A stretch of DNA of 62,058 nucleotides from the IMG/VR virus record IMGVR_UViG_3300025127_000028, positions 1 to 62,058 of that record; one strand, 5' to 3'. Both the position numbers and the translations under genes were made by a program. Origin of the DNA: a virus. Under the pieces are notes generated by a model, which saw only the letters and a list, made by a program, of their open reading frames with translations, searched no databases and was not told the origin of the DNA. Below are positions 1,921 through 53,011 of this stretch, one piece after another (position 1 is the stretch's first letter; the number at the start of each line of letters is the position of its first letter).

Positions 1921-1971
1921 CTGCGGCTAGGCTATGGCTGAACTGGGTGTGTACCGACACCCTTGCCGCAG
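1921..1971 (+). promoter_or_regulatory. structured leader hairpin before the primase gene
   Basis: Outer arms CTGCGGCTA (1921-1929) and TTGCCGCAG (1963-1971) pair with one mismatch. An inner stem GGGTGT/ACACCC (1945-1950 and 1957-1962) closes a 6-base loop. The element lies between the ssDNA-binding gene and the primase start at 1999. Only a short TTTT follows, so it could be a weak terminator, an attenuator or an mRNA processing structure. Confidence 0.55.
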
Positions 1972-1998
1972 TGCCTCTCGGTTTTGGTGTTAGTTATT

Positions 1999-4809
1999 AT
2001 GGAAACAAGAACTTTTTTAAGGGCAGCACTAGCAAACGAAGGACACTATTGTGTTTTTGCTTCTCGCGCCCATGATGATCGTAGAATACAAAAATTTTAT
2101 GAGTCGATAGATCAGGTAATAGACGCCGCACAAAATATGGATGCGGAAGGTTATGATGCGTACTACGCCCTCGCTACATTCAAAGAAGCAGGGTCACGCA
2201 AAGTAGATAATGTTAAATATTTAAACTCGTTATTTCTTGATCTAGACTGTGGCGCAAGCAAGGACTATGCGACTCAATCAGATGCTATTGGTGCGCTGAA
2301 GCATTTCTGTAAGAGATTGTCCTTACCTAAACCTGTTATGGTAAACTCTGGTCGCGGTGTGCATGTGTACTGGATGTTGAGCGAACCTGTGGGTCTAGAT
2401 GATTGGTTGCCAGTAGCAGAGCGATTGAAAAAACTGTGCGCTGACAACAATTTATTGGCTGATCCTGCGGTCACTGCAGATGCGGCTCGTGTGTTGCGTA
2501 TACCTACAACTCATAATCACAAGGATGACCCTCCTACAGCAGTAAACTTTTTCTTCGAGACTGCTATAAAGCCAGTGGATTTTGATGCGTTTTCTGAACT
2601 ATTAGGCAACAATCCTATACCTGTGCCGAAGCGTTATACTCCTGATGGCAACAATGCAGTCACGACTACACTCAACAGTAATATGGAAAGTACGTTTCGT
2701 GAGATACTACGCAAGACACAACAAGGACGTGGTTGTAAACAGTTACGAAACATAATGGTTAATCAAGAAGAGTGCATCGAACCCATGTGGAGAGCGGGGC
2801 TATCCATAGCTAAGTTCTGTACAGATGCCGATAAAGCTATACATGCAATATCAAAAAAGCATCCAGATTACACAGCAAGCGCTACACAAAAGAAGGTAGA
2901 CCTTATAAAAGGTCCGTACTTGTGCGCTAGATTTGATGAGTATGAGTCAGGTATATGCACCGAATGTCCACATTGGGGCAAGATAAAATCACCTATAACA
3001 TTAGGTAAACGTATACGCGAAGCCACGGACGAGGACAACATTGTTGAGGCTCCAGCCGAGAACCTCCCAAACAACCCCGTAAACCAGTATGTAATCCCTG
3101 CATATCCCCGTCCATACTTCCGTGGTGCAAACGGTGGGGTGTACATCAGGACTGTTAACAGCGATGGAGATCCTGACGAGAAAGTAATATACCATAACGA
3201 CTTATACGTTGTTAGACGACTGCGCGACGTGGAGCTGGGTGAAGCTGTTGTAATGCGATTACATTTGCCTAGAGATGGTGTGCGTGAGTTTACTTTGCCG
3301 CTAACTGCGGTTACTTCTAGAGAAGAGTTCCGAAAATATATGTCCATGCAAGGCGTGGCAGTAACAAAGATGGATGAAATTATGTCGTATACAACAACAT
3401 GGGTGAACGAGCTACAAGCTAACAGCACTGCGGATCAAGCACATAGACAGTTCGGTTGGACTAACGAAGACGGTGGTTCTTTTGTGCTTGGTAATCAGGA
3501 AATATTTAAAGATAAAGTCGAGTTCAATCCACCATCTAATCAGACAGCAGGGTTGTTTGCTTCTTTTGAGCCGCGAGGCACGATGGAGAAATGGAAAGAG
3601 ACCTTAGATTTTTATAATCGTGATGGGTTTGAACTACACCAGTTTGTAGTAGGCACGTCGTTTGGTTCTGCTCTTATGCAGTTCTCACCAATTAAATGTG
3701 CGGCCTTGCATATATACAGCAAGGACTCTGGTGTAGGTAAGACTACCGCCATGGAAGCAGGGGTTTCCGTGTGGGGTAAGCCCGAAGACCTGATTACCAC
3801 AGAGCGTGACACATATAACACCAAGATGAACAGAGGTGAGGTGTATCATAACTTACCGTTATATATGGACGAGTTGACCAACTCACATGGCAGGGAACTT
3901 AGTAACCTTGCATACCAACTTACTGGTGGTAGGCAGCGTGGTCGTATGGCTAGTGGTAGCAATACAGAGCGACATCGGGGTGAGGCTTGGAGTTTGTTAT
4001 CCGTTACCACAGGCAACACCAGTATTGTTGAGCGTATCAGTATTATAAAGGCTATGCCCAAAGCAGAAGCACAGCGCATTTTGGAGTGCCGTGTAAAACG
4101 TATGCACTTTGAAACAAAGGAAGAGACAGATAAATTTTCTGCTGCAATACAAGATAATTACGGACACGCAGGCATAGAATACGTGCAATACCTAATGAAT
4201 AATTTAGAGGACGCAAAGAAACTGTTAGCAGAAGTACAAGCACGGGTGGACGCTGAAGCCAACCTTACTGCTGAAAACAGGTTTTGGTCTGTGCTTATAG
4301 CAGCAACAGTAACAGGACTTATACTTGCAAAACGTGCAGGACTTGTGAACTATAATACTAAGAAAGTATTTAAATGGGGCGTAGAGCAGCTTAAAGAAAA
4401 CAAACGCCAAGTCGAGGACATGAGTGTAGGTGTAGAAGAAGTGCTTAACGATTATATACATGAACACTGGAGTAACGTACTGTGGATCAAGAGTACAGAT
4501 GATTTGCGCAAGCAAAACACAGACGCTGAGTCGGTTGTAATCCCAGAAGCACTACCTAGAGGTAAGCTGGTTGCTCGTTACGAAACAGATTTAAAACGTG
4601 CATATCTAGTGCCAAAGCCATTGAAGGCTTGGTGTGGTGAACAACAGATAAACTATAACTCGTTTGTATACGATCTTAAATCTAAGTTGGGGGCGCGTAA
4701 GTCTAAGATGCGTTTGAGTAAAGGTACGCACATGAACCTACCGCCAACTGATGTAATTATTGTCGATTGTTCAGTGGAGAGGATAGATGGAGAAACGATA
4801 CAAGCGTGA
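1999..4809 (+). CDS. primase-helicase (AEP-like primase + DUF927/SF3-like helicase)
   Basis: A 936-residue replication protein. The N-terminal domain (about 1-220) looks like an archaeo-eukaryotic primase/prim-pol: acidic FLDLDCG at 79-85 and SGRGVHVYW at 117-125, then RVLRIPTTHNHK. A Cys/His cluster (C309, C320, C323, H325) may bind zinc. The C-terminal half is a DUF927-type helicase with Walker A SKDSGVGKTT (G578-K581) and Walker B YMDE (D624, E625). It would unwind DNA and lay primers for the family A polymerase. The ATG at 1999 was chosen over an in-frame TTG at 1963, which lies in the upstream hairpin. The 3' end overlaps the next gene by 23 bases. Confidence 0.87.
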   Translation: METRTFLRAALANEGHYCVFASRAHDDRRIQKFYESIDQVIDAAQNMDAEGYDAYYALATFKEAGSRKVDNVKYLNSLFLDLDCGASKDYATQSDAIGALKHFCKRLSLPKPVMVNSGRGVHVYWMLSEPVGLDDWLPVAERLKKLCADNNLLADPAVTADAARVLRIPTTHNHKDDPPTAVNFFFETAIKPVDFDAFSELLGNNPIPVPKRYTPDGNNAVTTTLNSNMESTFREILRKTQQGRGCKQLRNIMVNQEECIEPMWRAGLSIAKFCTDADKAIHAISKKHPDYTASATQKKVDLIKGPYLCARFDEYESGICTECPHWGKIKSPITLGKRIREATDEDNIVEAPAENLPNNPVNQYVIPAYPRPYFRGANGGVYIRTVNSDGDPDEKVIYHNDLYVVRRLRDVELGEAVVMRLHLPRDGVREFTLPLTAVTSREEFRKYMSMQGVAVTKMDEIMSYTTTWVNELQANSTADQAHRQFGWTNEDGGSFVLGNQEIFKDKVEFNPPSNQTAGLFASFEPRGTMEKWKETLDFYNRDGFELHQFVVGTSFGSALMQFSPIKCAALHIYSKDSGVGKTTAMEAGVSVWGKPEDLITTERDTYNTKMNRGEVYHNLPLYMDELTNSHGRELSNLAYQLTGGRQRGRMASGSNTERHRGEAWSLLSVTTGNTSIVERISIIKAMPKAEAQRILECRVKRMHFETKEETDKFSAAIQDNYGHAGIEYVQYLMNNLEDAKKLLAEVQARVDAEANLTAENRFWSVLIAATVTGLILAKRAGLVNYNTKKVFKWGVEQLKENKRQVEDMSVGVEEVLNDYIHEHWSNVLWIKSTDDLRKQNTDAESVVIPEALPRGKLVARYETDLKRAYLVPKPLKAWCGEQQINYNSFVYDLKSKLGARKSKMRLSKGTHMNLPPTDVIIVDCSVERIDGETIQA

Positions 4810-40908: not shown

Positions 40909-41921
40909 TAGTTCTTCCTCATTTCTTCTGCAACCTTTTGGGCGTATAGTTCTAAGGGTACTCCGAGTCGTTTAGCTATAGACACTTGTGTTTGCGTTAG
41001 CGTTACTTTCTTTGGCGCTGCGCTCCGCGTTGCGGGTGCAACCACATTTGCCTGTTTCTTAGGCTTCTCGACTTCTATTTCAGCATCCTCGAAACTATCG
41101 GGGAATACTTGGCGCATACGAGAATCAATTTTCTCGTAGTATTCGTCGCTTCCGATGGCAACGCCATCTTTCTGAAGCTTTGCGTGCAACCCCATTGCTA
41201 GAGCGGTCATTTCATCGTCTGACCCGAACCATGAATTAGCTGCTGCCCATTCATTAGCCCGTGTATCTACCGGTGGAGCGGTTTCTGTTGGTAAGTTAAC
41301 AGGAGTTTCTTCCTCCTGTAAAGCGGGAAGTTTTAAATTATTTAACCTATCGGCCTTAATCTTGGCAGATGTTAGGCTTTCTTGTGCTTCAACAACTGCC
41401 TCTGCGTCTCCAGACTCATACGCTACCTTATATTTAGCTTTGGCCTGTTCTAGCTCGCCTGTAGCAGATCGTTTAGCTTGCTCAAGCATAGTTGATTGAT
41501 TCTTACCAACCGTGCCTTTTAATTCTTTGTTTTCATCCACCAGCTTTTTAGCAAACGCTTCTAACTCTTGTCTTTCGCGGAGAGCTGTTTCTTTTGCTCG
41601 CCTCTCGTCGTGATAGCCTTTACTAAAATGCTTTATCCTATTCTTTACCTTATCAGAGTATTCTTCAAGTTCTTCATCAGTGATATCAGCTGGTGGCTCA
41701 GAGACTTTACGCCCTCTATCAGCTTTTGGCGTATCATCAACAACTTCAATCTCAAGTCCGTGATTAGGAGTGTCACTTTTACTCTCAGGTTTTGGAGCAG
41801 GCTCTGCAGATTTTTTACCAGATAAGTCAATTTCAACAGCACTGGAACTCTCCACTTCTATGTCTGGTTTATTTTCCTTCTCATCAGGAAACTCATACTC
41901 TACTTTCTGAAACGCCATCAT
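40908..41921 (-). CDS. scaffolding protein (337 aa)
   Basis: A 337-residue acidic, mostly helical protein. Residues 1-90 are disordered and charged, 90-185 are coiled coil (ADITDEELEEYSDKVKNRIK, KETALRERQELEAFAKKLVD), and the C-terminal end has a basic helix (TLTQTQVSIAKRLGVPLELY). The size, composition and place between portal and capsid genes fit an internal scaffold that directs head assembly. It may be removed by exit or proteolysis; no protease gene is clear nearby. Confidence 0.75.
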   Translation of the reverse strand: MMAFQKVEYEFPDEKENKPDIEVESSSAVEIDLSGKKSAEPAPKPESKSDTPNHGLEIEVVDDTPKADRGRKVSEPPADITDEELEEYSDKVKNRIKHFSKGYHDERRAKETALRERQELEAFAKKLVDENKELKGTVGKNQSTMLEQAKRSATGELEQAKAKYKVAYESGDAEAVVEAQESLTSAKIKADRLNNLKLPALQEEETPVNLPTETAPPVDTRANEWAAANSWFGSDDEMTALAMGLHAKLQKDGVAIGSDEYYEKIDSRMRQVFPDSFEDAEIEVEKPKKQANVVAPATRSAAPKKVTLTQTQVSIAKRLGVPLELYAQKVAEEMRKN

Positions 41922-44965: not shown

Positions 44966-46522
44966 CTAATAGTATCCGCCACTACGTCGTTTAAAGTACC
45001 GTTGTTCTTCAGGTTCATCACTAGGTAGACGTATAAAGCCCCCCTGACGGAATCTCATAAGGGCCATAACTGTCGAATCAACTAAGTCATCATGGCTCAT
45101 AAACGGGAATCCTGCAATCTCTTCTATAACTTCTTCTGCCCAACGGGTCTCTGGAACCCAACATAAGCCCGATGCTACAATATCAGATACGGAATTTAGA
45201 CGGGCCAACTTATCTCCTGAACCTCTATGTGGGGTATACTCCTGTACAGGCAAACCTGACCTGCGCATTTCTTGGTATAGGGCCGTACCAGAACTTTTTT
45301 TCTCAACGATAAACGCGTCTGGCTCCCAATCTTCGTATTCTTCCATGGCAAGCTGTTTAAGCTCTGGGAACTCCATACGCTTTTTTATGCTGTTTAGCAA
45401 TATAATATTATAATTGTTCTCTTCTTCATTCAAAAACACACCCCATGTCGTCAATGCTGTGTAATCAGCACGGTTGTGTGCTTCTGCTGCCGCATCCAAA
45501 GACATGATAACATACTCACAATCGGGCGGACGTTCTTGTTTCCATATACCCCACCAGTCACGTTTGATAAGAGCGGCCTCTTCTGCGGTAGGTTGTTGCT
45601 GGTATTGCGCATTCCATTGAAACGCAGGCATAGATGCCTTGGTGCGTAGTAGCGCGTTAAGGTCAAAAAACTCAGGCCATAACGGTTTCTGTTCTGACTT
45701 CTTGGTTTTCTTATTTATTATATCGAGTATGGCTGGAAACTCTACCACATCATATTGATCAGCTCGATCATTCTGCCCCATGTCTCTGACAACCCGCCCT
45801 GTCAGATCATCCATGTGCCATCTGGTTTGTATGATAGCCACACGACCTCCCGGCATTAATCGTGTACGCGCTCCGAAGGTGAACCACTCATATGCTTTTT
45901 CAAAGACTTCAAAGTTTCCGTTAATGACATCTTGTTCGGAATGGGGATCGTCAACGAGCAAGAGGTCAGCACCGCGACCAGCAATAGAGGAACCAATACC
46001 GCACGCATAATACTCACCTCCTGCATTAGTATTCCAGCGACCAGCAGACTTGGAATCTATTGCTAGTTTCACTGTAGGGAATATAGAGCTATACTCTTCA
46101 GTAGATATAAGATTACGTACCTTACGTCCAAAGTCCACCGCCAGATCGGTGGTGTGTGACACCATCATAACCTTCTTATTAGGGTTCCTACCCAGAAACC
46201 AAGCCGGAAAGAATATGGAAACAAGCTGCGATTTACCGTGTCTGGGGGGTATGTTGACACAAATACGGTCTTTTTTACCCTCTGCGATGTCCATAAGCAT
46301 GTTTGCAAGCATTCTATGGTGTTTTCCGACGATATAATCAGGCTGCATACGCTTACAGAACTCAATCAGGTCGTCATAAGCCGCTTTATTGGTCTTTCTG
46401 GTGCTTAATTCGTCAACAAGACGGTCGATCTCTACAATTTCGTCCTCAGTGTACTGATCCAAGTTGCCCAACATCTGTTGAACTTCTTCTTCAGTGAAAT
46501 CTACCGCCAATTCAGATGTCAC
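44966..46522 (-). CDS. terminase large subunit (518 aa)
   Basis: A 518-residue DNA packaging motor. Walker A is PPRHGKSQ at 92-99 and Walker B is LLLVDD at 187-192, with coupling-motif-like MMVSHTTDL near 120. The C-terminal RNase H-like nuclease begins with IMSLDAAAEAHNRADYTA (catalytic Asp) and has later acidic residues (SHDDLVDSTVMAL). Cleavage at genome ends and ATP-driven translocation are the known roles. The start overlaps the upstream gene by 4 bases. Confidence 0.93.
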   Translation of the reverse strand: MTSELAVDFTEEEVQQMLGNLDQYTEDEIVEIDRLVDELSTRKTNKAAYDDLIEFCKRMQPDYIVGKHHRMLANMLMDIAEGKKDRICVNIPPRHGKSQLVSIFFPAWFLGRNPNKKVMMVSHTTDLAVDFGRKVRNLISTEEYSSIFPTVKLAIDSKSAGRWNTNAGGEYYACGIGSSIAGRGADLLLVDDPHSEQDVINGNFEVFEKAYEWFTFGARTRLMPGGRVAIIQTRWHMDDLTGRVVRDMGQNDRADQYDVVEFPAILDIINKKTKKSEQKPLWPEFFDLNALLRTKASMPAFQWNAQYQQQPTAEEAALIKRDWWGIWKQERPPDCEYVIMSLDAAAEAHNRADYTALTTWGVFLNEEENNYNIILLNSIKKRMEFPELKQLAMEEYEDWEPDAFIVEKKSSGTALYQEMRRSGLPVQEYTPHRGSGDKLARLNSVSDIVASGLCWVPETRWAEEVIEEIAGFPFMSHDDLVDSTVMALMRFRQGGFIRLPSDEPEEQRYFKRRSGGYY

Positions 46523-46749
46523 GACATCTCACCTTTAGGTTTTTTAAGATCTTCGGGTAGTTTAGCAAGCTCACAACTGGTTATAAGCTTGTAATTTTTG
46601 TTTCTTTCTCTCCATACCCAGTTTTTAGCCATGGAATCACATTCTTTTTGAGTCATAAGCACATCTAGAACAACATTATTGCCTACATATACCCATTCTT
46701 CTTCTGCGGTGAACCCCCATACACTTACAACAAGTAAAAAAACCTTCAT
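46519..46749 (-). CDS. small exported-type protein in terminase operon (76 aa)
   Basis: A 76-residue protein with a hydrophobic N-terminal stretch like a signal peptide or membrane anchor (MKVFLLVVSVWGFTAEEE), then WVYVGNNVVLDVLMTQKECD and a second Cys (ITSCELAKLP), suggesting a disulphide in the periplasm. It sits between the two terminase genes and overlaps both by 4 bases. Its position is hard to explain by packaging; superinfection exclusion or a lysis accessory function are possible. Confidence 0.6.
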   Translation of the reverse strand: MKVFLLVVSVWGFTAEEEWVYVGNNVVLDVLMTQKECDSMAKNWVWRERNKNYKLITSCELAKLPEDLKKPKGEMS

Positions 46750-47342
46750 TTTTCATTCTCCAGTCCTAACTCAGCGTCAACATCCAGAGATTCACCATCA
46801 ATAACGATGGCATCTTGTATTTTTTCCTCTGGTGTACTGAGTTTTTGTAGTTTCTCCCGTAATTTAGCTCGTAAATCGTCGGTGGATTGATGCGTTATGG
46901 TCACTTCGGACTTCTCTGCAAACAATCCAACGTCAGATATCTTACCCAACAGCTCTAATGCGCGCATACGTACACGAGGATCTGGGTTTTCTGTCTCTAA
47001 CAGTAACTTGTTAGTCACAAGGTGGCGTATATGTAATGAACTTTTGACTACTGACTGCCCAAACTCCTGAAGAATATTGTTTGTAAGTATCAGAGAGGCG
47101 GGTGTCAGCGTTGCTATCTTTTTATCAGTAACCTTTTTGGAGGTAGCTTCAGGATCATCTGCATATGCTGTGACTAATTTAGCTGCGATATCCTTGTCTT
47201 CCTTGGTAGGTTCTACATCTAACCCATGGTCAGCAAGTTCCTTGGCAGTTTCACTAGCTGCATCTGTGCGTTGGCTTAGATCTACGAATGGGGACTCGTC
47301 AGGAATCGCCACGCCTAGTTCAGGTTCTACCAATATACTCAT
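46746..47342 (-). CDS. terminase small subunit (198 aa)
   Basis: A 198-residue protein, first gene of the late arm. The helical core (PASLILTNNILQEFGQSVVK, DPRVRMRALELLGKISDVGL) and the tail with TDDLRAKLREKLQKLSTPEE match terminase small-subunit-like proteins of marine phages. It would recognise the packaging site, probably in or near the structured upstream region. It directly precedes the large subunit cluster. Start at 47342. Confidence 0.72.
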   Translation of the reverse strand: MSILVEPELGVAIPDESPFVDLSQRTDAASETAKELADHGLDVEPTKEDKDIAAKLVTAYADDPEATSKKVTDKKIATLTPASLILTNNILQEFGQSVVKSSLHIRHLVTNKLLLETENPDPRVRMRALELLGKISDVGLFAEKSEVTITHQSTDDLRAKLREKLQKLSTPEEKIQDAIVIDGESLDVDAELGLENEK

Positions 47343-47369
47343 ATCTTTTCGCAGGTTATTAACCGTAAC

Positions 47370-47436
47370 GGGTGAGGGGGATTGCCGATTCAGACTATCT
47401 TTTGTTGACAGCGCAAGACGCCTGATCCCCTCACCC
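47370..47436 (-). repeat. inverted repeat in terminase leader
   Basis: GGGTGAGGGG (47370-47379) and CCCCTCACCC (47427-47436) are perfect 10-bp arms with a 47-base loop. The right arm ends about where the candidate minus-strand promoter would start transcription, so the arms would lie at the 5' end of the late mRNA. Confidence 0.6.
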
Positions 47437-47443
47437 TTATCAA

Positions 47444-47472
47444 TCTATACACAATAATTATTTTTTATGCAA
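47444..47472 (-). promoter_or_regulatory. candidate late promoter for terminase operon
   Basis: On the minus strand TTGCAT (47467-47472), a 17-base AT-rich spacer and TATAGA (47444-47449). The match to sigma70 is weak to moderate (3/6 and 4/6), but spacing and position before the terminase genes fit. Confidence 0.35.
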
Positions 47473-47600
47473 GTAGGTTGGGACTCCTACCGGGGGGTGT
47501 TCCTGTGTGAGAGGGGGTGGGGGGTCCAAACTGAGAAAATACCGATTAGTTCGTGGAAATTAGTAATATATAGATGTGTATGTAACTAACAACACATAAC

Positions 47601-47621
47601 GGGTCATAGGGGGCGGGTGGG
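47601..47621 (+). other. G-quadruplex-forming motif
   Basis: GGG-N5-GGGGG-N1-GGG-N1-GGG fits the canonical four-tract G4 rule, in an otherwise AT-rich genome. Additional G-runs at 47492-47497, 47513-47517 and 47519-47524 lie nearby. It may affect the switch between arms or packaging. Confidence 0.55.
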
Positions 47622-47665
47622 TCAACGATATGCCAGATTTAGCCATTACCTGCCATAGAACTAAA

Positions 47666-47685
47666 TGTTAGTGTATACACTAACA
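47666..47685. repeat. 20-bp perfect palindrome (dispersed family, copy 1)
   Basis: TGTTAGTGTATACACTAACA is a perfect 20-bp palindrome. It shares arms GTTAGTG/CACTAAC with nine other copies in the plus arm but has a 4-base TATA centre. It lies 113 bases upstream of the gene at 47799, at the divergent region. Confidence 0.85.
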
Positions 47686-47798
47686 AATAATAACACGTTT
47701 ACAATCTATCTATATCAAAACACGTTAGGATGTGCCATATTACAACCATCGAAGGGACATACCGTTCCTTCACTAGCGACATAAGAAAGGAATTCATT

Positions 47799-48323
47799 AT
47801 GTCTAATTTCGTAAACGCTAAGTTGGCTAGCGCAATCGCCAACGCAGTCTCAGCGACCACCAAGTCGCTACGTGCAACTCAAACAGCCATTGACTTGTTC
47901 GTGGCCGATGGTTGGAAGTCTACTGACTTGATCTCGCCGAAAGGCAAAGACAGCAAGTCTACTGCCAGCGAAGAAAAGTTCGCCGAACTCAACGCGGCAA
48001 TCGTTGCTGGCTTTACGGCCACCACTCAAAAGCTTTTGGAGACTAACACCAAAACGCTAACTGAGACCGGCAAGGCTAACAAGCGATACTGGCAACAGCA
48101 GATTGGCGCTAGACGCAACGACTTCAAGACTGCTCTATCCAAGCGTGAAGATGCGAAGAACGGCGGCGCTAATACCAAGCGGTCTGATGCGCAACGTATC
48201 GCCGACAATCTCAACGACTGCTCTAAGGTTATTGAGAATTCGGAAGGCATCAACGGCGTTGATCTGATCAAACTGGCCGAGGCGATCAAGACTGCCAAGT
48301 CTGTCTTACACGCTAAGTTCTAA
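47799..48323 (+). CDS. conserved phage protein, unknown (174 aa)
   Basis: The first gene of the plus arm, about 174 residues from the ATG at 47799 (MSNFVNAKLASAIANAVSAT), preceded by AAGAAAGGAATTC. An in-frame start 69 bases earlier lacks such a site. The protein is helical, Ala/Lys/Thr-rich, with KANKRYWQQQIGARRNDFKT in the middle. By eye the codon use is GC-richer than in the late genes. It is followed by its own terminator, so it is a single-gene unit probably made early and in quantity. No family is recognised; a host-takeover or DNA-binding role is possible. Confidence 0.7.
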   Translation: MSNFVNAKLASAIANAVSATTKSLRATQTAIDLFVADGWKSTDLISPKGKDSKSTASEEKFAELNAAIVAGFTATTQKLLETNTKTLTETGKANKRYWQQQIGARRNDFKTALSKREDAKNGGANTKRSDAQRIADNLNDCSKVIENSEGINGVDLIKLAEAIKTAKSVLHAKF

Positions 48324-48331
48324 TCATACTA

Positions 48332-48362
48332 GGCAGGGATTTATTCCCTGCCTTTTCTTTTA
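48332..48362 (+). terminator. rho-independent terminator, left twin
   Basis: GGCAGGGA (48332-48339), loop TTTAT, TCCCTGCC (48345-48352), then TTTTCTTTT. It ends the gene at 47799-48323. A near-identical hairpin is at 48740. Confidence 0.9.
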
Positions 48363-48378
48363 CGAAAGGTAACAAGTT

Positions 48379-48558
48379 ATGACTGGTTTATATTTGAATG
48401 GTGAGCCGATGATCTGGATGTCGGTTACTGAAGATGAGTTTGGGGATCTGCGTTTTGTGGCATCGCCTGAGTTTAACGATTACTTAACTACAGTTTCGGT
48501 TGCGCATCAACATATGGTTGACCGCACTATACCGGCTGACTATTGGGAGAAAAGATAA
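48379..48558 (+). CDS. small hypothetical protein (59 aa)
   Basis: A 59-residue frame from ATG 48379, preceded by CGAAAGGTAAC: MTGLYLNGEPMIWMSVTEDE followed by FGDLRFVASPEFNDY and a helical end. The stop overlaps the next start as TAATG. It is part of a two-gene unit placed between twin terminators. No domain is recognised. The coupling and ribosome site support a real gene. Confidence 0.6.
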   Translation: MTGLYLNGEPMIWMSVTEDEFGDLRFVASPEFNDYLTTVSVAHQHMVDRTIPADYWEKR

Positions 48559-48734
48559 TGAAAGTTTGGGGATATATCATTGTGGTGTTTGGTATGCTGT
48601 TCTTTTTGGCTGGTGTATCAATAGAAGAAAACATACGCAGCCCATGGCCTTGGATATGGGTTGCTATTCACGTCATTTGGATAATGGTTTCGATGGCTGT
48701 TATGGGCATCGGATATCTAATGACAAGACGTTAA
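48558..48734 (+). CDS. two-span membrane protein (58 aa)
   Basis: A 58-residue protein with two hydrophobic helices (GYIIVVFGMLFFLAGVSI and WVAIHVIWIMVSMAVMGIGY) and a basic C-terminus (LMTRR). The ATG at 48558 overlaps the upstream stop. It is probably an inner-membrane protein. Superinfection exclusion or membrane takeover is possible; the sequence alone does not say. Confidence 0.65.
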   Translation: MKVWGYIIVVFGMLFFLAGVSIEENIRSPWPWIWVAIHVIWIMVSMAVMGIGYLMTRR

Positions 48735-48739
48735 GATCA

Positions 48740-48768
48740 GGCAGGGATTTATTTCCCTGCCTTTTTTT
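48740..48768 (+). terminator. rho-independent terminator, right twin
   Basis: GGCAGGGA (48740-48747), loop TTTATT, TCCCTGCC (48754-48761), then seven T. The stem is identical to that at 48332. Together they bracket the two-gene unit 48379-48734. Confidence 0.92.
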
Positions 48769-48780
48769 GTGCCTACGAAA

Positions 48781-48881
48781 CCAGTTCTCGGAGTAGCGTT
48801 GAGCCATCACACGCATGATTACACGTTTATGTTAGTGACACACTAACACGTTGATACCAGTTCTCGGAGCCGCGTTGAGCC
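48781..48881 (+). repeat. 25-bp direct repeat pair
   Basis: The 25 bases at 48781-48805 (CCAGTTCTCGGAG...GTTGAGCC) recur at 48857-48881 with two mismatches, a 76-base period. The palindrome at 48831 lies between. Located just before the iterons. Confidence 0.8.
48831..48847. repeat. palindrome family, copy 2
   Basis: GTTAGTGACACACTAAC: 7-bp arms around ACA, with flanking T/A extending the arms to 8. It lies in the non-coding region before the iterons. Confidence 0.85.
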
Positions 48882-48882
48882 T

Positions 48883-49235
48883 AATGTTCTAATGTTCTTT
48901 ATAATGTTCCGTAATGTTCGTTTTTTTAGACCGCTTTGAGAACATTATGTTTTCGTGTCGGTTTGTGACAACGCATGATAAGCAATAGAGTTTCTTCCCT
49001 ATCAGCTTTTATCTATTCTTCTATTTTTATATAGTTTTATTTTTTAGTAGTGTAATGTTCGTTTTTTCAAATAATGCTTAGTCTTGTTAGTGACTCACTA
49101 ACACGTCAACACGAATGTTCTCATCTCTGAGAGGGCGCCGACGCGGATGTCCAAAACCCTCAAAAAACGAACAATAGAACATTCCTGTTTTTCCAATGCG
49201 TTACACGCCCCCACCACAGAACATTACAGAACATT
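48883..49235. repeat. iteron region, candidate replication origin
   Basis: AATGTTC occurs on the plus strand at 48883, 48891, 48903, 48913, 49054 and 49114, and as GAACATT at 48940, 49177, 49219 and 49229; eight of ten are TAATGTTC. An AT-rich tract lies at about 49005-49052. The GTAATGTTCGTTTTTT block occurs twice (48911, 49052). No gene is seen in 48769-49367. Iterons plus an AT-rich segment and a nearby strong promoter fit a replication origin. A regulatory array is the alternative. Confidence 0.65.
49086..49102. repeat. palindrome family, copy 3
   Basis: GTTAGTGACTCACTAAC with ACT centre; contains GACTC (a GANTC site). It lies within the iteron region. Confidence 0.85.
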
Positions 49236-49282
49236 ACAGTACACTACACAGATACACACAATACAACACGTTTCCACATCAT

Positions 49283-49311
49283 TTGACATTGCTGATAATA
49301 TTTGCTATAAT
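49283..49311 (+). promoter_or_regulatory. strong sigma70 promoter, extended -10
   Basis: TTGACA (49283-49288), 17-base spacer, TATAAT (49306-49311), both exact consensus, with TGC before the -10. It drives the operon starting at 49368/49450. Transcription would begin near 49318. Confidence 0.92.
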
Positions 49312-49317
49312 ATAAGG

Positions 49318-49336
49318 ACAGTCAGAGTTTGACTGT
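49318..49336 (+). promoter_or_regulatory. hairpin/operator at transcription start
   Basis: ACAGTCA (49318-49324), loop GAGTT, TGACTGT (49330-49336), followed by TTTA. It falls exactly at the predicted start, as an operator half-site pair or a 5' mRNA hairpin. Confidence 0.65.
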
Positions 49337-49367
49337 TTTACAACCTGTTGTCATGAAAGGACACATT

Positions 49368-49433
49368 ATGCAAAACGTAACCACAAACCAAAATGTTAGT
49401 GACACACTAACCACAGTTTACGGAATTCCGTAA
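49368..49433 (+). CDS. candidate leader peptide (21 aa)
   Basis: MQNVTTNQNVSDTLTTVYGI plus Pro: 21 residues, ATG preceded by AAAGGACACATT. The frame contains palindrome copy 4 and the whole first TTTACGG palindrome; the stop is inside it. It is the first frame after the strong promoter, as for an attenuation leader, although it may be just a short spurious frame. Confidence 0.45.
   Translation: MQNVTTNQNVSDTLTTVYGIP
49395..49411. repeat. palindrome family, copy 4
   Basis: GTTAGTGACACACTAAC with ACA centre, inside the leader frame and upstream of the gene at 49450. Confidence 0.85.
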
Positions 49434-49434
49434 A
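49417..49434. repeat. second palindrome, copy A
   Basis: TTTACGGAATTCCGTAAA is an 18-bp perfect palindrome. A second exact copy is at 49688. It lies six bases after palindrome copy 4. Confidence 0.85.
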
Positions 49435-49449
49435 GAAAGAGAGAGACCA

Positions 49450-49638
49450 ATGAAGAACTACGCACACATAAAAGACCCCAAGCAGCAGCGCATCGCCATG
49501 TTGCTTGACCACCTCAAGCATCTGGATGACCTCGGCTGGACACAGCCGTCACACTCATATGCAGAGGACATTGCTACAGCTGTAGCAGAGACCATCAAAG
49601 AACTGACCGCTCTCGGTCATGTTCACACAACACACTAA
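49450..49638 (+). CDS. hypothetical protein (62 aa)
   Basis: A 62-residue His-rich helical protein (KQQRIAMLLDHLKHLDDLGW, AEDIATAVAETIKELTALGH). It is preceded by AGAAAGAGAGAGACC. The first full gene of the early operon. No domain is recognised. Confidence 0.6.
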   Translation: MKNYAHIKDPKQQRIAMLLDHLKHLDDLGWTQPSHSYAEDIATAVAETIKELTALGHVHTTH

Positions 49639-49661
49639 AACTTGTCACACAGGAGAACGAC

Positions 49662-50582
49662 ATGACACAGATTACCTCAACCGAAACTTTACGGAATTCC
49701 GTAAACCCTGCACCATCTACACCAAGCATTGGATCATCTGCCATGCTATGTGAGTTATCCATCTCAACATGGACAGGACGCAAGAAAGATCGCAAAGCAT
49801 CAGAAGATGTTACCGATGCAAACTTTGCGGCATCCGGTGTTGCCTCTGTACACAAGAAGCTACTCGCTGATTGCCAAGAACTTGTTGCAGTACAGAAGTT
49901 CACAGCTAACAGCCGCAACATGCACTACGCTATGACAATGCCGTGGTCTGACACAGGCTTGCGTCTTTTGCCAACGGCTCAATACTTCAAGTATCATCAA
50001 GCAATGACTGACATACAGAACGAGTATGACAGGCTTGTTAACACGTTTCTACAAGGTTACGAATGGGAGATCACCCAAGCATCCGCAAAGCTAGGTGACT
50101 TGTTCAATCGTGACGAGTATCCATCAATCGACAGCTTACGCAACAAGTTTGGGTTCCGCTTGTCGTATATTCCACTGCCTGACGCTGGTGATTTTCGTAT
50201 CGACATTGGCAATGAAGCAACGGAACAAGTCAAGGATCACTACCAATCCTACTACTCGACACAGCTAAACAACGCAATGAATGACGTGTGGCAACGCACC
50301 CACAAGGCGTTATCTGCTATGTCCGAGCGACTCGACTACACACCATCCGAGGACAAGAAAGTATTCCGCGACACGCTCGTGACCAACGTCCTTGACATGG
50401 TAGAACTTCTTAACGTGTGTAACGTATCGGGCGACAGCCAGATGAACGCGGCACGTATGAAACTTGAAGATGCACTACGCGGTGTCAATGCTGATGCACT
50501 GCGCGAGGATGCTCACCTGCGGTCAGAGACTAAGCGTACCGTGGATGAGGTCATCAAATCACTACCATCAATCGGCATGTAA
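49662..50582 (+). CDS. DUF3150-like protein (306 aa)
   Basis: A 306-residue protein. 'LSISTWTGRKKDRKASEDV' near the N-terminus, then VHKKLLADCQELVAVQKF, YDRLVNTFLQGYEWEITQAS and SLRNKFGFRLSYIPLPDA follow the DUF3150 layout as recalled from plasmids and integrative elements, where it sits beside CobS/CobT-like ATPase and VWA genes, just as here. The function is unknown in all settings. Its N-terminal codons contain the second TTTACGG palindrome. It is followed by palindrome copy 5. The family name is a recall, not a search result. Confidence 0.62.
   Translation: MTQITSTETLRNSVNPAPSTPSIGSSAMLCELSISTWTGRKKDRKASEDVTDANFAASGVASVHKKLLADCQELVAVQKFTANSRNMHYAMTMPWSDTGLRLLPTAQYFKYHQAMTDIQNEYDRLVNTFLQGYEWEITQASAKLGDLFNRDEYPSIDSLRNKFGFRLSYIPLPDAGDFRIDIGNEATEQVKDHYQSYYSTQLNNAMNDVWQRTHKALSAMSERLDYTPSEDKKVFRDTLVTNVLDMVELLNVCNVSGDSQMNAARMKLEDALRGVNADALREDAHLRSETKRTVDEVIKSLPSIGM
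49688..49705. repeat. second palindrome, copy B
   Basis: TTTACGGAATTCCGTAAA, identical to 49417-49434, but here inside codons 10-15 of the DUF3150-like gene. Confidence 0.85.
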
Positions 50583-50585
50583 CTT

Positions 50586-50602
50586 GTTAGTGACACACTA
50601 AC
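50586..50602. repeat. palindrome family, copy 5
   Basis: GTTAGTGACACACTAAC, in the gap just upstream of the AAA+ ATPase gene. Confidence 0.85.
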
Positions 50603-50628
50603 ACAACTTAGAAAGAATGGAGTTTATT

Positions 50629-51723
50629 ATGAACACAGCAACAGCAATGTATGCACTGGGTCTTGACCAAGTAGCCAATGCTATTCTCAAGACAGGACAC
50701 AAACGCACCATGCTCATCCAAGGTGACATGGGTACTGGCAAGTCATCACTACTACCTGTGATCGGCAAAGAGAAGCCCGACCACATCTTGTGCTACTTCG
50801 ATTGCACGACCAAGGACTTGGGTGACATCACCATACCCAACATTGCCAAGATGGATGATGGCACAGGCTATGTGACGTATCTCACTAATGAAGAATTGGG
50901 TGCGCACAACCACACGCCTGTCGTCCTGATGATTGACGAGTTCGGCAAGTCCAACCCAGCAGTCAAGAACGCACTGTTACGTCTTATACTGGAGCGCAAG
51001 ATCGGTAGCTACACACTGCACCCTGACAGCATTATCTTTGCCACGACTAACAAAGGCTCTGAGGGTGTCGGTGACTTGCTACCACCACACGCACGTAATC
51101 GCATGACTGTAGTACAAACACGCAAACCCACTAACATGGAATGGATTGAATGGGGGATTAACAATGACATCGACCACACGTTACTTGGCTGGGCAAAAGA
51201 CAACCCGCAAATTTTCTACTCGTTTGAGGACATCAAAGACCCAGACGACAATCCATACATCTTCCATCCCAAGCAGAACAGAGCCGCGTTTGTTACACCA
51301 CGCTCGTTGGAGGCGGCAAGCGACATACTCAAAGTACGAGATGGATTAGATGACCAGACCACAACAGCTATGCTCATGGGTACTATCGGTGAGCGTGGCG
51401 CGATGGACTTGATGGCGTTTGTCAAGCTGGCTGACCAGCTACCGAGTGCCGAGTCTATCAAACAGGAACCCAAGACTGCCAAGATACCGACCAGTGCCGC
51501 AGGTGTGTGTATGATTGTGTATCGCACACTAGCATCTTTGGAGAGAGACTGGATTGATCCATGGATGGATTACCTTGTTCGCCTCGACAAAGAAGCACAG
51601 GGTATGTTTGCCAACGGAGTGCGCGCACCCAAGTATGCCAAGCAGTCACTTGTTATGACAAACAAGAAGTTCACACAATGGGCGATGGACAACAACTACA
51701 TGTTCGCGGCTGACAAGAAATAG
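50629..51723 (+). CDS. MoxR/CobS-type AAA+ ATPase (364 aa)
   Basis: A 364-residue ATPase. Walker A GDMGTGKS at 32-39, Walker B VVLMIDEF at 98-105, sensor 1 IIFATTN (Asn141) and HARNRM (R156/R158) as likely arginine finger. This is the helix-2-insert AAA+ group with MoxR and CobS, whose members work as chaperones with VWA-domain partners to insert metals or remodel proteins. The VWA partner is the next gene. ATG 50629 has TGGAGT at 6-7 bases; a start 12 bases earlier lacks a good site. It ends in palindrome copy 6. Confidence 0.85.
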   Translation: MNTATAMYALGLDQVANAILKTGHKRTMLIQGDMGTGKSSLLPVIGKEKPDHILCYFDCTTKDLGDITIPNIAKMDDGTGYVTYLTNEELGAHNHTPVVLMIDEFGKSNPAVKNALLRLILERKIGSYTLHPDSIIFATTNKGSEGVGDLLPPHARNRMTVVQTRKPTNMEWIEWGINNDIDHTLLGWAKDNPQIFYSFEDIKDPDDNPYIFHPKQNRAAFVTPRSLEAASDILKVRDGLDDQTTTAMLMGTIGERGAMDLMAFVKLADQLPSAESIKQEPKTAKIPTSAAGVCMIVYRTLASLERDWIDPWMDYLVRLDKEAQGMFANGVRAPKYAKQSLVMTNKKFTQWAMDNNYMFAADKK

Positions 51724-51739
51724 TTAGTGACTCACTAAC
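51723..51739. repeat. palindrome family, copy 6
   Basis: GTTAGTGACTCACTAAC, starting at the last base of the ATPase stop codon, upstream of the VWA gene. Contains GACTC. Confidence 0.85.
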
Positions 51740-51747
51740 ATCTTATG

Positions 51748-51769
51748 GGGTGGGGCATGTGCCTCACCC
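51748..51769 (+). promoter_or_regulatory. hairpin before the VWA gene
   Basis: GGGTGGGGC (51748-51756), loop ATGT, GCCTCACCC (51761-51769), 9 bp with one G-T. No U-run follows; it is 15 bases before the ATG. It may stabilise or process the mRNA. Confidence 0.6.
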
Positions 51770-51784
51770 AGAAAGGACAGACCA

Positions 51785-53011
51785 ATGCTTGCTATTGGAA
51801 AACAACTGACTACCGAGCAACGGCTCAACAAATGTGTCATCGACATCATGGGTCACCCCAAGTATGTCGCACTCGCTGGCATACTGATGATCGGTGAGAA
51901 GCGTATCTGCGACAGCACACAGACAGCGTATACCAACGGACGTGACGAGGTGTATGGGCGTGGGTTCGCGGATCAGTGCAACGATCCAGAGTTCCGCTAT
52001 CTCATACTGCATGAGTGCTATCACAAGCTGTATCAACATCTCAAGACTTGGAAGCACCTATGGGATGAGAACCCACAGCTTGCCAACATGGCGATGGACT
52101 TCGTTATCAACCTCAAGATTTCTGATGACAACAAGGACGGCTTCGCAACCATGACAGGCCCACTCACAGTAGGTTGTTATGATGAGAAGTATCGTGGTAT
52201 GGACACAGCCCAAGTATTCAATCTGCTCAAGCAAGACACAACGCCACAAGATGGTTCTAGTGCCGGGGACGGTAGCGGTAATGGTACGCAGGGTAACGCG
52301 TCACCACAAGGCTTCGACGAGCATGACTTCGAGGGCGCACAAGAACTATCTCCAGCCGAGCAACAGGAGCTAGCGCGAGACATTGACGAGGCAGTGCGTC
52401 AGGGTGCGTTGATCGCTGGCAAGATGGGGTCAGGTGGTGACCGTGACTTGCAGGACTTGCTTCAACCACAAGTCGATTGGCGTGAGGTCATGCGTGACTT
52501 CATCACCACCACATGCACAGGCAATGACTATTCAACATGGAAGCGACCCAACAGGCGTTACATTGGCATGGGTCACTATCTGCCGAGTGGTATCTCCGAG
52601 CGTGTTGACGAGTTGGTGATTGCCACTGACATGTCAGGGTCTATCGGTGACAGGGAAGTTAGTGTTGCACTAACAGAAATCAAATCAATCGCTGACACCA
52701 TACACCCAGAAGCAGTACGCCTATTGTATTGGGATACGAAAGTATGTCAGGACGAGAAGTACGACATGCACGAACTCGATACGATGGTGACATCAACCAG
52801 ACCCAAGGGTGGCGGTGGCACTTACGTTGAGTGTGTGCCAGCGTACATGACCGACAAGAACATCACACCACAAGCTGTTATCGTGATTACCGATGGCTAC
52901 GTTGGGTCGTGGGGTCAGTGGTCATGCCCAGTGTTGTGGGTCATCATCGACAACAAAAGTGCAAAGCCCGACTGTGGCATTACAGTCCACGTAAAATCAG
53001 GAGATATGTAA
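51785..53011 (+). CDS. VWA-domain protein with HExxH N-terminal domain (DUF2201-like, 408 aa)
   Basis: A 408-residue protein. The N-terminal domain has H76-E-C-Y-H80, a zincin-type metal site as in the putative metallopeptidase half of DUF2201 proteins. A Gly/Ser/Asp/Gln linker runs at 155-205. The C-terminal VWA domain keeps a full metal-ion adhesion site: D283-x-S285-x-S287, T347 in GGGGT, and D371 in ITDG. It likely binds the AAA+ ATPase encoded just upstream, as in MoxR-VWA pairs that remodel targets. The substrate is unknown. Palindrome copy 7 lies within the VWA codons. Confidence 0.82.
   Translation: MLAIGKQLTTEQRLNKCVIDIMGHPKYVALAGILMIGEKRICDSTQTAYTNGRDEVYGRGFADQCNDPEFRYLILHECYHKLYQHLKTWKHLWDENPQLANMAMDFVINLKISDDNKDGFATMTGPLTVGCYDEKYRGMDTAQVFNLLKQDTTPQDGSSAGDGSGNGTQGNASPQGFDEHDFEGAQELSPAEQQELARDIDEAVRQGALIAGKMGSGGDRDLQDLLQPQVDWREVMRDFITTTCTGNDYSTWKRPNRRYIGMGHYLPSGISERVDELVIATDMSGSIGDREVSVALTEIKSIADTIHPEAVRLLYWDTKVCQDEKYDMHELDTMVTSTRPKGGGGTYVECVPAYMTDKNITPQAVIVITDGYVGSWGQWSCPVLWVIIDNKSAKPDCGITVHVKSGDM
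52658..52674. repeat. palindrome family, copy 7 (intragenic)
   Basis: GTTAGTGTTGCACTAAC with TTG centre; arms conserved although inside VWA codons just after the MIDAS motif. Confidence 0.8.

Follow-up and report, generated by a model that had tools for sequence, protein, structure and literature searches.

A conserved iteron array of an uncultivated tailed phage is a probable replication origin coupled to an early promoter

Results and discussion

Genome context and organization of the iteron gap

The window (the whole stretch of DNA analyzed, IMG/VR virus record IMGVR_UViG_3300025127_000028) has a length of 62,058 bases, and its ends share a 182-base overlap with one mismatch. Since the ends overlap and a helicase gene spans their joint, the map circularizes to about 61.9 kb. 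The window is a tailed marine phage, with genes for terminase, portal, major head protein, family-A DNA polymerase, exonuclease, helicase, and a Gp2.5-like SSB; its TerL shares 46% identity with that of Pelagibacter phage HTVC027P and 45% with that of HTVC023P. According to the ORF list, the genes presumed to be early (replication) point rightward and extend from 47.7 kb across the joint to 5.2 kb, and those presumed to be late (structural) point leftward, from 47.3 to 5.3 kb. The iteron gap sits close to this divergence, and the only ORFs listed within it are one of 61 aa (49147-49332) and the end of one starting with TTG (48500-48796). The operon to its right is headed by a conserved trio of DUF3150, MoxR-like ATPase, and VWA/DUF2201 genes (49662-53011), which is also present in Planktothrix phage Pag-Yong1 (23-29% identical); Rhizobium phage RHph_TM3_14A carries annotated ATPase-domain and metallopeptidase-domain genes. 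A possible 21-codon leader ORF (49368-49433), noticed by eye just past the promoter, runs through GTTAGTG and TTTACGG palindromes. No match was obtained when positions 46500-52000 were compared at the DNA level with named phages, when 48301-49700 were compared with plasmids, or when 47301-50000 were scanned against Rfam at gathering scores. A host search, in which genome contigs were scanned for the ATPase, returned 36 pattern-matching stretches, none of them encoding a relative.

The features of the locus are listed in Table 1. As the initial annotation had described, ten exact copies of AATGTTC/GAACATT lie within 353 bases (48883-49235), eight of them extendable to TAATGTTC, and the copies flank an AT-rich tract; the two palindromes of a dispersed family (GTTAGTG-N3-CACTAAC) and the consensus promoter that it had placed in and after the gap were also found. 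The 25-bp direct repeat that it reported corresponds to a pair of 29-nt copies, 90% identical. In the whole window the heptamer occurs 15 times, which is not unusual (shuffle mean 10.3; 15 reached in 13 of 100 shuffles). Its clustering is: in 400 Markov shuffles of the window the best 7-mer cluster per 353 bp held 3 to 5 copies (words with fewer than three different letters omitted), compared with the ten observed. The gap also contains the five most AT-rich 60-bp segments of the record (83% A+T), with starts at 49007-49016. The order of the iterons is ++++- left of the AT center and ++--- right of it, the two arms being imperfect mirror images, and degenerate 10-bp units ending in ACA continue, by eye, from the right arm to the -35 box. 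The locus thus combines a compact, non-coding group of short repeats with an adjoining candidate unwinding element that is AT-rich in sequence composition, as is the case in iteron origins.

Table 1. Features of the iteron gap and the candidate initiator gene (window coordinates)
Feature	Position	Strand	Basis or remark
Candidate initiator, 948-aa PrimPol (AEP) + DUF927 MCM-like helicase + C-terminal winged-helix-like domain	1963..4809	+	
Intrinsic-terminator-like inverted repeat with T run, closing the upstream rightward unit	48739..48768	+	Sequence, repeat search
29-nt direct repeat, copy 1, GAWACCAGTTCTCGGAG..GCGTTGAGCC	48777..48805	+	Repeat search; related blocks in relatives by eye
Palindrome GTTAGTG-ACA-CACTAAC, dispersed family	48831..48847	.	
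29-nt direct repeat, copy 2	48853..48881	+	Repeat search
Left arm, four forward iterons TAATGTTC at 48882, 48890, 48902, and 48912	48882..48919	+	
Reverse iteron within left arm	48940..48947	-	
AT-rich tract, presumed DNA unwinding element	49007..49075	.	Most AT-rich 60-bp segments of the record
Forward iteron, right edge of AT tract	49053..49060	+	
Palindrome GTTAGTG-ACT-CACTAAC, dispersed family	49086..49102	.	
Forward iteron GAATGTTC	49113..49120	+	
Right-arm reverse iteron	49177..49184	-	One-mismatch copy TATTGTTC just before, 49169-49176
13-mer TCCAATGCGTTAC, window form of the conserved ATCAAGGACTTGC-like element	49192..49204	+	
Right arm, two reverse iterons 10 bp apart, GAACATTACA units	49219..49236	-	
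Sigma-70 promoter TTGACA-17-TATAAT, presumed early operon	49283..49311	+	-35 box 54 bp from last iteron core

The array is conserved among relatives

Absence of the repeats from relatives had been named by the initial annotation as evidence that would speak against an origin. The cluster was instead found to be kept upstream of the same operon, together with its layout. Relatives were taken from IMG/VR as the best 80 of 297 matches to the neighboring ATPase, and the words AATGTTC, AAAGTTC, AATATTC, TGTTCCA, and AGTTCCA were counted within 480 bp upstream of the operon. At least five words were present in 56 of 65 loci (the window and 64 of these best 80 matches) and in two of five further loci (L050, L060, L068, L070, and L077), which gives 58 of 70 for the window and its relatives among the best 80 of 297. 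The other 11 of the 80 loci, with at most 1.1 kb upstream, were not counted; L010 and L015, which belong to them, gave none. Mononucleotide shuffles of the 65 regions reached five words in 0.09% of cases. The first copy is forward in 53 of the 56 clusters, the last copy is reverse in 51, and every cluster holds a 60-bp tract of 73-90% A+T. Clades differ in the iteron word, with the layout unchanged.

Twelve of the 70 loci remained below five words, those of the first set of 65 being L025, L030, L031, L037, L038, L057, L064, L066, and L079. Five of the twelve have four copies and five have a short or incomplete flank, whereas L079 shows, by eye, a similar layout with GTTACCA-like variant words. 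The remaining one, L077, is a true miss, with no iteron cluster in the 6 kb upstream and an ATPase 74% identical; its origin may have moved. This miss counts against the origin reading, as do the imperfect arms.

The 13-mer ATCAAGGACTTGC and its variants are present in 46 of 61 loci, in 38 of these 46 at 129-184 bp to the right of the AT center. Its density is 1.22 per kb inside the origin region vs 0.038 per kb elsewhere (32-fold), for a pattern drawn up after inspecting some of the same loci and with the rest of the loci as the control. The exact 17-bp iteron pair, scanned in IMG/VR, occurred in at least 119 stretches, 80 of which were tested. Among the 80 listed, 64 carry a cluster of at least five words, and family genes were found in 61 of these 64, the other three being contigs of 1-3 kb; 13 have neither a cluster nor a family gene, and three have family genes with fewer than five words. 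Some of these contigs are shared with the ATPase-retrieved set. The iteron array is thus tied to this phage family.

Helical phasing and promoter register

Removal of near-duplicates left 36 of the 56 loci, with 303 same-strand distances between iteron cores of up to 65 bp. Of these, 277 fall at 8-12, 20-22, 30-32, 40-43, 50-53, or 60-63 bp, and the vector strength is 0.69 at a period of 10.5 bp, 0.60 at 10 bp, and 0.62 at 11 bp, compared with 0.06 at 9 bp (other periods served as the control). Since iterons of the same strand are phased at about 10.5 bp, the bound protein probably sits on one face of the helix.

The promoter shares this regularity. In 27 of the 36 dereplicated loci a TTGAC[AT] box is found no more than 130 bp from the last iteron core, against a background of 5.9% of the window's 126-bp stretches containing such a box. 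The distance is exactly 34, 44, 54, 64, or 74 bp in 22 of these 27; a stricter full-promoter pattern was found in 33 of the 56 loci. The recurrence of the promoter at regular distances in many relatives makes a regulatory role likely in addition to origin function, and the iteron origin is probably coupled to the early promoter. The register between the -35 box and the iterons may reflect contact with RNA polymerase, or it may be a mere relic of a fixed distance, the outer iterons having decayed by 10-bp units.

The same observations bear on the main rival to an origin, a purely regulatory array at which a phage regulator in register with RNA polymerase would switch the early operon, replication starting elsewhere. 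A consensus promoter directly after the array, the recurrence of the TTGAC[AT] box at 10-bp steps well above its background, the full-promoter pattern in more than half of the loci, and a -35 box in register with the iterons would all be expected of it. Nevertheless, a simple operator would not need as many as ten sites, arranged as two arms about the AT extreme of the genome, and in the window the -35 and -10 boxes are free of exact iterons. Moreover, a similar layout with another word occurs in Pseudomonas phage Rollin, which encodes a distant PrimPol-helicase, and the dispersed palindromes, with a covarying protein of their own, are a better candidate for a regulatory system. An array devoted to transcription control alone is thus considered unlikely.

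Dispersed palindromes and their covarying protein

Nine exact copies of GTTAGTG-N3-CACTAAC were found in the window, all between 48831 and 60804. In 11 of 14 genomes or contigs compared (the window, G001-G006, and G009-G012), there is an own set of 4-10 identical palindromes each, located in the early region as judged by position; the same comparison found none in G007, G008, and G014. The types include GTTAGTG-N3, GTTAGGG-N3, GTTATAC-N3, TGTAGTG-N3, TTTACGG-N4, and TTTAGGG-N4, with GTTAGTC-N4 and TTCGGGC-N4 in other loci, and the type switches between close relatives, for example between the window and G009. Two exact TTTACGGAATTCCGTAAA palindromes (49417-49434 and 49688-49705), of a type present ten times in G009, are perhaps the relic of such a switch in a GTTAGTG-type genome. 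By eye, the 29-nt GATACCAGTTC..GCGTTGAGCC block often stands close behind a palindrome, forming a composite unit left of the iterons, and relatives also show blocks of this kind near palindromes.

Immediately to the left of the putative origin lies the gene (47730-48323, start probably 47799) for an all-helical protein that evolves fast and varies with the palindrome type. For example, QQQIGARRNDFK occurs with GTTAGTG and QQQIGSKLKDLR with GTTAGGG, the counterparts being GQKVGTWISTRK with TTTACGG and QAKIGSVMKDIK with TTTAGGG. At an ATPase similarity of 0.90-0.97, the mean similarity of this protein is 0.67 between genomes of the same type (n = 64 pairs) vs 0.11 between those of different types (n = 16), pairs that are not independent of each other. 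A nearest-neighbor test of palindrome type did not discriminate, this protein giving 39 of 47 correct assignments and the ATPase by itself 37 of 47, but the comparison at equal ATPase similarity does. Its model is all-helical with a mean pLDDT of 87.6, with no PDB match at E up to 0.001 and no clear Pfam or PHROG relative. The covariation suggests that it is possibly a palindrome-binding regulator.

Iterons and palindromes that cluster close together would also fit a centromere-like or other structural site serving an episomal state, such as partition or the anchoring of a superhelical domain. However, no match to a partition family (Pfam, PHROGs) was found among the proteins scanned, a subset of the gene products, and we give this explanation almost no credence.

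A PrimPol-DUF927 helicase as candidate initiator

The candidate initiator gene lies about 14.6 kb downstream of the array on the closed map. Its product contains a DUF927 domain (E = 2.3e-26) and a PrimPol match below its cut-off, and phmmer related it to SaPIbov1 Rep (8tch, E = 1.2e-15) and SCCmec Cch (5dgk, E = 1.8e-7). An AlphaFold2 model was built from 41 sequences (mean pLDDT 80, pTM 0.45, the latter making domain placement uncertain), for which Foldseek returned the same two structures, SaPIbov1 Rep and Cch, as the top two. In VIA-align 2 comparisons, model residues 378-940 matched Cch with Z 29.3 (rmsd 16.1, 475 residues) and SaPIbov1 Rep with Z 26.0 (rmsd 18.3, 441 residues), the next-best match having Z 18.6. 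Shifts between domains probably account for the high rmsd. The N-terminal part aligned with S-2L PrimPol (Z 18.6, rmsd 2.6) and RepB' primase (Z 14.0, rmsd 3.3). Around residues 859-935, strands, two helices, and two strands are predicted, a winged-helix-like order.

In PMC7581432, the C-terminal domain of SaPI Rep is described as recognizing the origin iterons, and Cch as a relative of SaPIbov1 Rep that contains DUF927. The C-terminal winged helices of primase-helicases, DUF927 ones included, have been proposed to act in origin recognition (PMC5862659). The PrimPol-DUF927 helicase is the most likely protein to bind the iterons, and would do so via its C-terminal winged-helix-like domain. When the iteron word was compared with the helicase C-terminal domain in 19 proteins, one clear switch with both sides on a contig was found (G011), and covariation is therefore too thin to name the iteron-binding protein; the iterons could instead be bound by another protein of the replication module, for example the HTH protein 923-1213. 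The phage encodes an initiator helicase of the SaPI Rep kind, but the array is located about 14.6 kb upstream of its gene instead of directly downstream, and a single AATGTTC (4876) occurs within 8 kb after the gene. This distance counts against the origin reading, SaPI origins being placed directly downstream of rep (PMC7581432).

In two contrasts the iteron word follows the replication module

Two relatives offer informative contrasts. G003 holds nine AATGTTC words and a PrimPol-helicase 68% identical, with a TerL of 48% and no match to the TerS-like gene (46746-47342). In G011, TerL is 81% and the PrimPol-helicase 47% identical, and the words are mainly TGTTCCA. In both comparisons the iteron word tracks the PrimPol-helicase and not the terminase, and a replication site is therefore favored over a packaging site. 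These contrasts do not single out the binding protein.

A packaging (pac) site read by the small terminase had to be considered, repeated hexamers being its target at the pac site of phage P1; in favor of it, the large terminase gene starts 2.4 kb to the left of the array, and the two arms surround a center. However, G003 keeps AATGTTC with a distant TerL and G011, with a close one, does not. Furthermore, no comparable cluster was found in the examined parts of HTVC027P (50.0 of 57.6 kb), HTVC023P (30.0 of 60.9 kb), and DSL-LC04 (50.0 of 61.5 kb), whose best 7-mer clusters in 450 bp have 5, 5, and 6 copies, respectively. In these three phages TerL is 45-46% identical, and primase and helicase are separate. 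A pac site is consequently very improbable.

Among named phages, PrimPol-helicase relatives were found in 18 records, the best being that of Rollin (30% identical). Rollin resembles the window in having iterons, eight in number, in an unannotated gap, near positions 260-680 of OR577172, around its most AT-rich tract (50 of 61 kb examined), and differs in the word, which is TATGCAA/TTGCATA instead of AATGTTC. In RHph_TM3_14A (PrimPol-helicase 24% identical; 48.9 of 60.9 kb examined), the AT extremes fall in the gap upstream of the early genes and the repeats are weak, with 5 copies of the best word. The gap left of the late genes of Pag-Yong1 (L206) contains a cluster of nine GTCATAC words, from position 41225, and no PrimPol-helicase homolog was detected in 50.0 of the phage's 65.0 kb. 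It was counted neither for nor against in this comparison, since the array is there and no PrimPol-helicase was detected; together with the weak repeats of RHph_TM3_14A, it belongs to the observations that weigh against the origin reading.

A probable iteron origin at the edge of the early promoter

The candidate replication origin proposed in the initial annotation is supported by the conserved cluster and layout, the AT extreme, and an encoded helicase of the kind used at iteron origins. We consider it very likely that the gap at 48.88-49.28 kb is an iteron replication origin, served most likely by the phage's PrimPol-DUF927 helicase and with an early promoter at its right edge. What was observed directly, namely the layout, its conservation, the helical phasing, the helicase with its fold relationship, and their co-occurrence, is consistent with this reading.

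The GC skew of the window and of 13 relatives, fragments among them, which the initial annotation had suggested as a check, was dropped as support for the origin. Its extremes track gene orientation, the cumulative minimum of the window lying at 51,305, 2.1 kb to the right of the array, and it is therefore uninformative about the origin.

From these elements we infer a model of origin activity, covering the binding protein, melting, fork direction, and promoter effect. The initiator helicase would bind the iterons through its C-terminal winged-helix-like domain and assemble in helical register on both arms. It would then melt the AT tract and load itself onto the two strands, and its PrimPol domain would prime synthesis by the phage family-A DNA polymerase. 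Because the right arm runs into the early promoter, binding of the initiator would probably also modulate early transcription. A more far-reaching version, which we put forward tentatively and think somewhat doubtful, is that helicase stacked in register from the right arm to the -35 box would both open the origin and throttle or fire the early promoter. The amount of initiator would then flip the phage from early transcription to replication, and iteron word and C-terminal winged helix would have co-evolved, each phage lineage reaching a specificity of its own.

Comparison with known systems and implications

Iteron origins with initiator helicases are already known. SaPI iterons flank an AT-rich stretch, and in phage P4 the alpha protein binds iterons at an ori with an AT-rich stretch, the iteron sequence and helicase family of P4 differing from those described here. 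The SaPI ori/Rep system (SaPIbov1 Rep, PDB 8tch) shares with the phage a related MCM-like initiator helicase and an iteron origin. In the phage, however, the helicase is fused to PrimPol and belongs to a large tailed phage, the array is far from the initiator gene, unlike the SaPI origin next to rep (PMC7581432), and it is in register with a promoter. P4 alpha combines primase and initiator helicase in one protein (PMC7145576), as is the case here. SCCmec Cch is the best structural match to the phage helicase, and Cch2 binds direct repeats, three iterons, via its C-terminal domain (PMC7581432). Cch and Cch2 come from a different element, and no PrimPol fusion is described for them in the relevant passages of that paper, whereas the phage helicase is PrimPol-fused. 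In the PrimQH and All3500 families a primase is followed by DUF927, and the C-terminal winged helix of PrimQH was proposed to recognize the origin; the corresponding part of PMC5862659 gives no cis sites, whereas a cis element is proposed here.

What sets this large tailed phage apart is the fusion to PrimPol, the distance of about 14.6 kb between array and initiator gene, the two arms around an AT tract, and the promoter register. To our knowledge, the origins of uncultivated marine phages have rarely been located, and no account of this origin was found by title or abstract opening among the literature matches listed. A family-wide layout of iteron arms, AT tract, 13-mer, and promoter is predicted here along with a named initiator candidate, and the idea can therefore be tested in an isolate such as Rollin. 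The iteron variants AATGTTC, AAAGTTC, AATATTC, TGTTCCA, GTTACCA (L079, by eye), and TATGCAA (Rollin) constitute a natural series for studying winged-helix specificity. If true, our interpretation would extend SaPI/SCCmec-type initiator helicases, in PrimPol-fused form, to large tailed phages, and would provide a cis site for a class of primase-helicases whose origin recognition was merely proposed.
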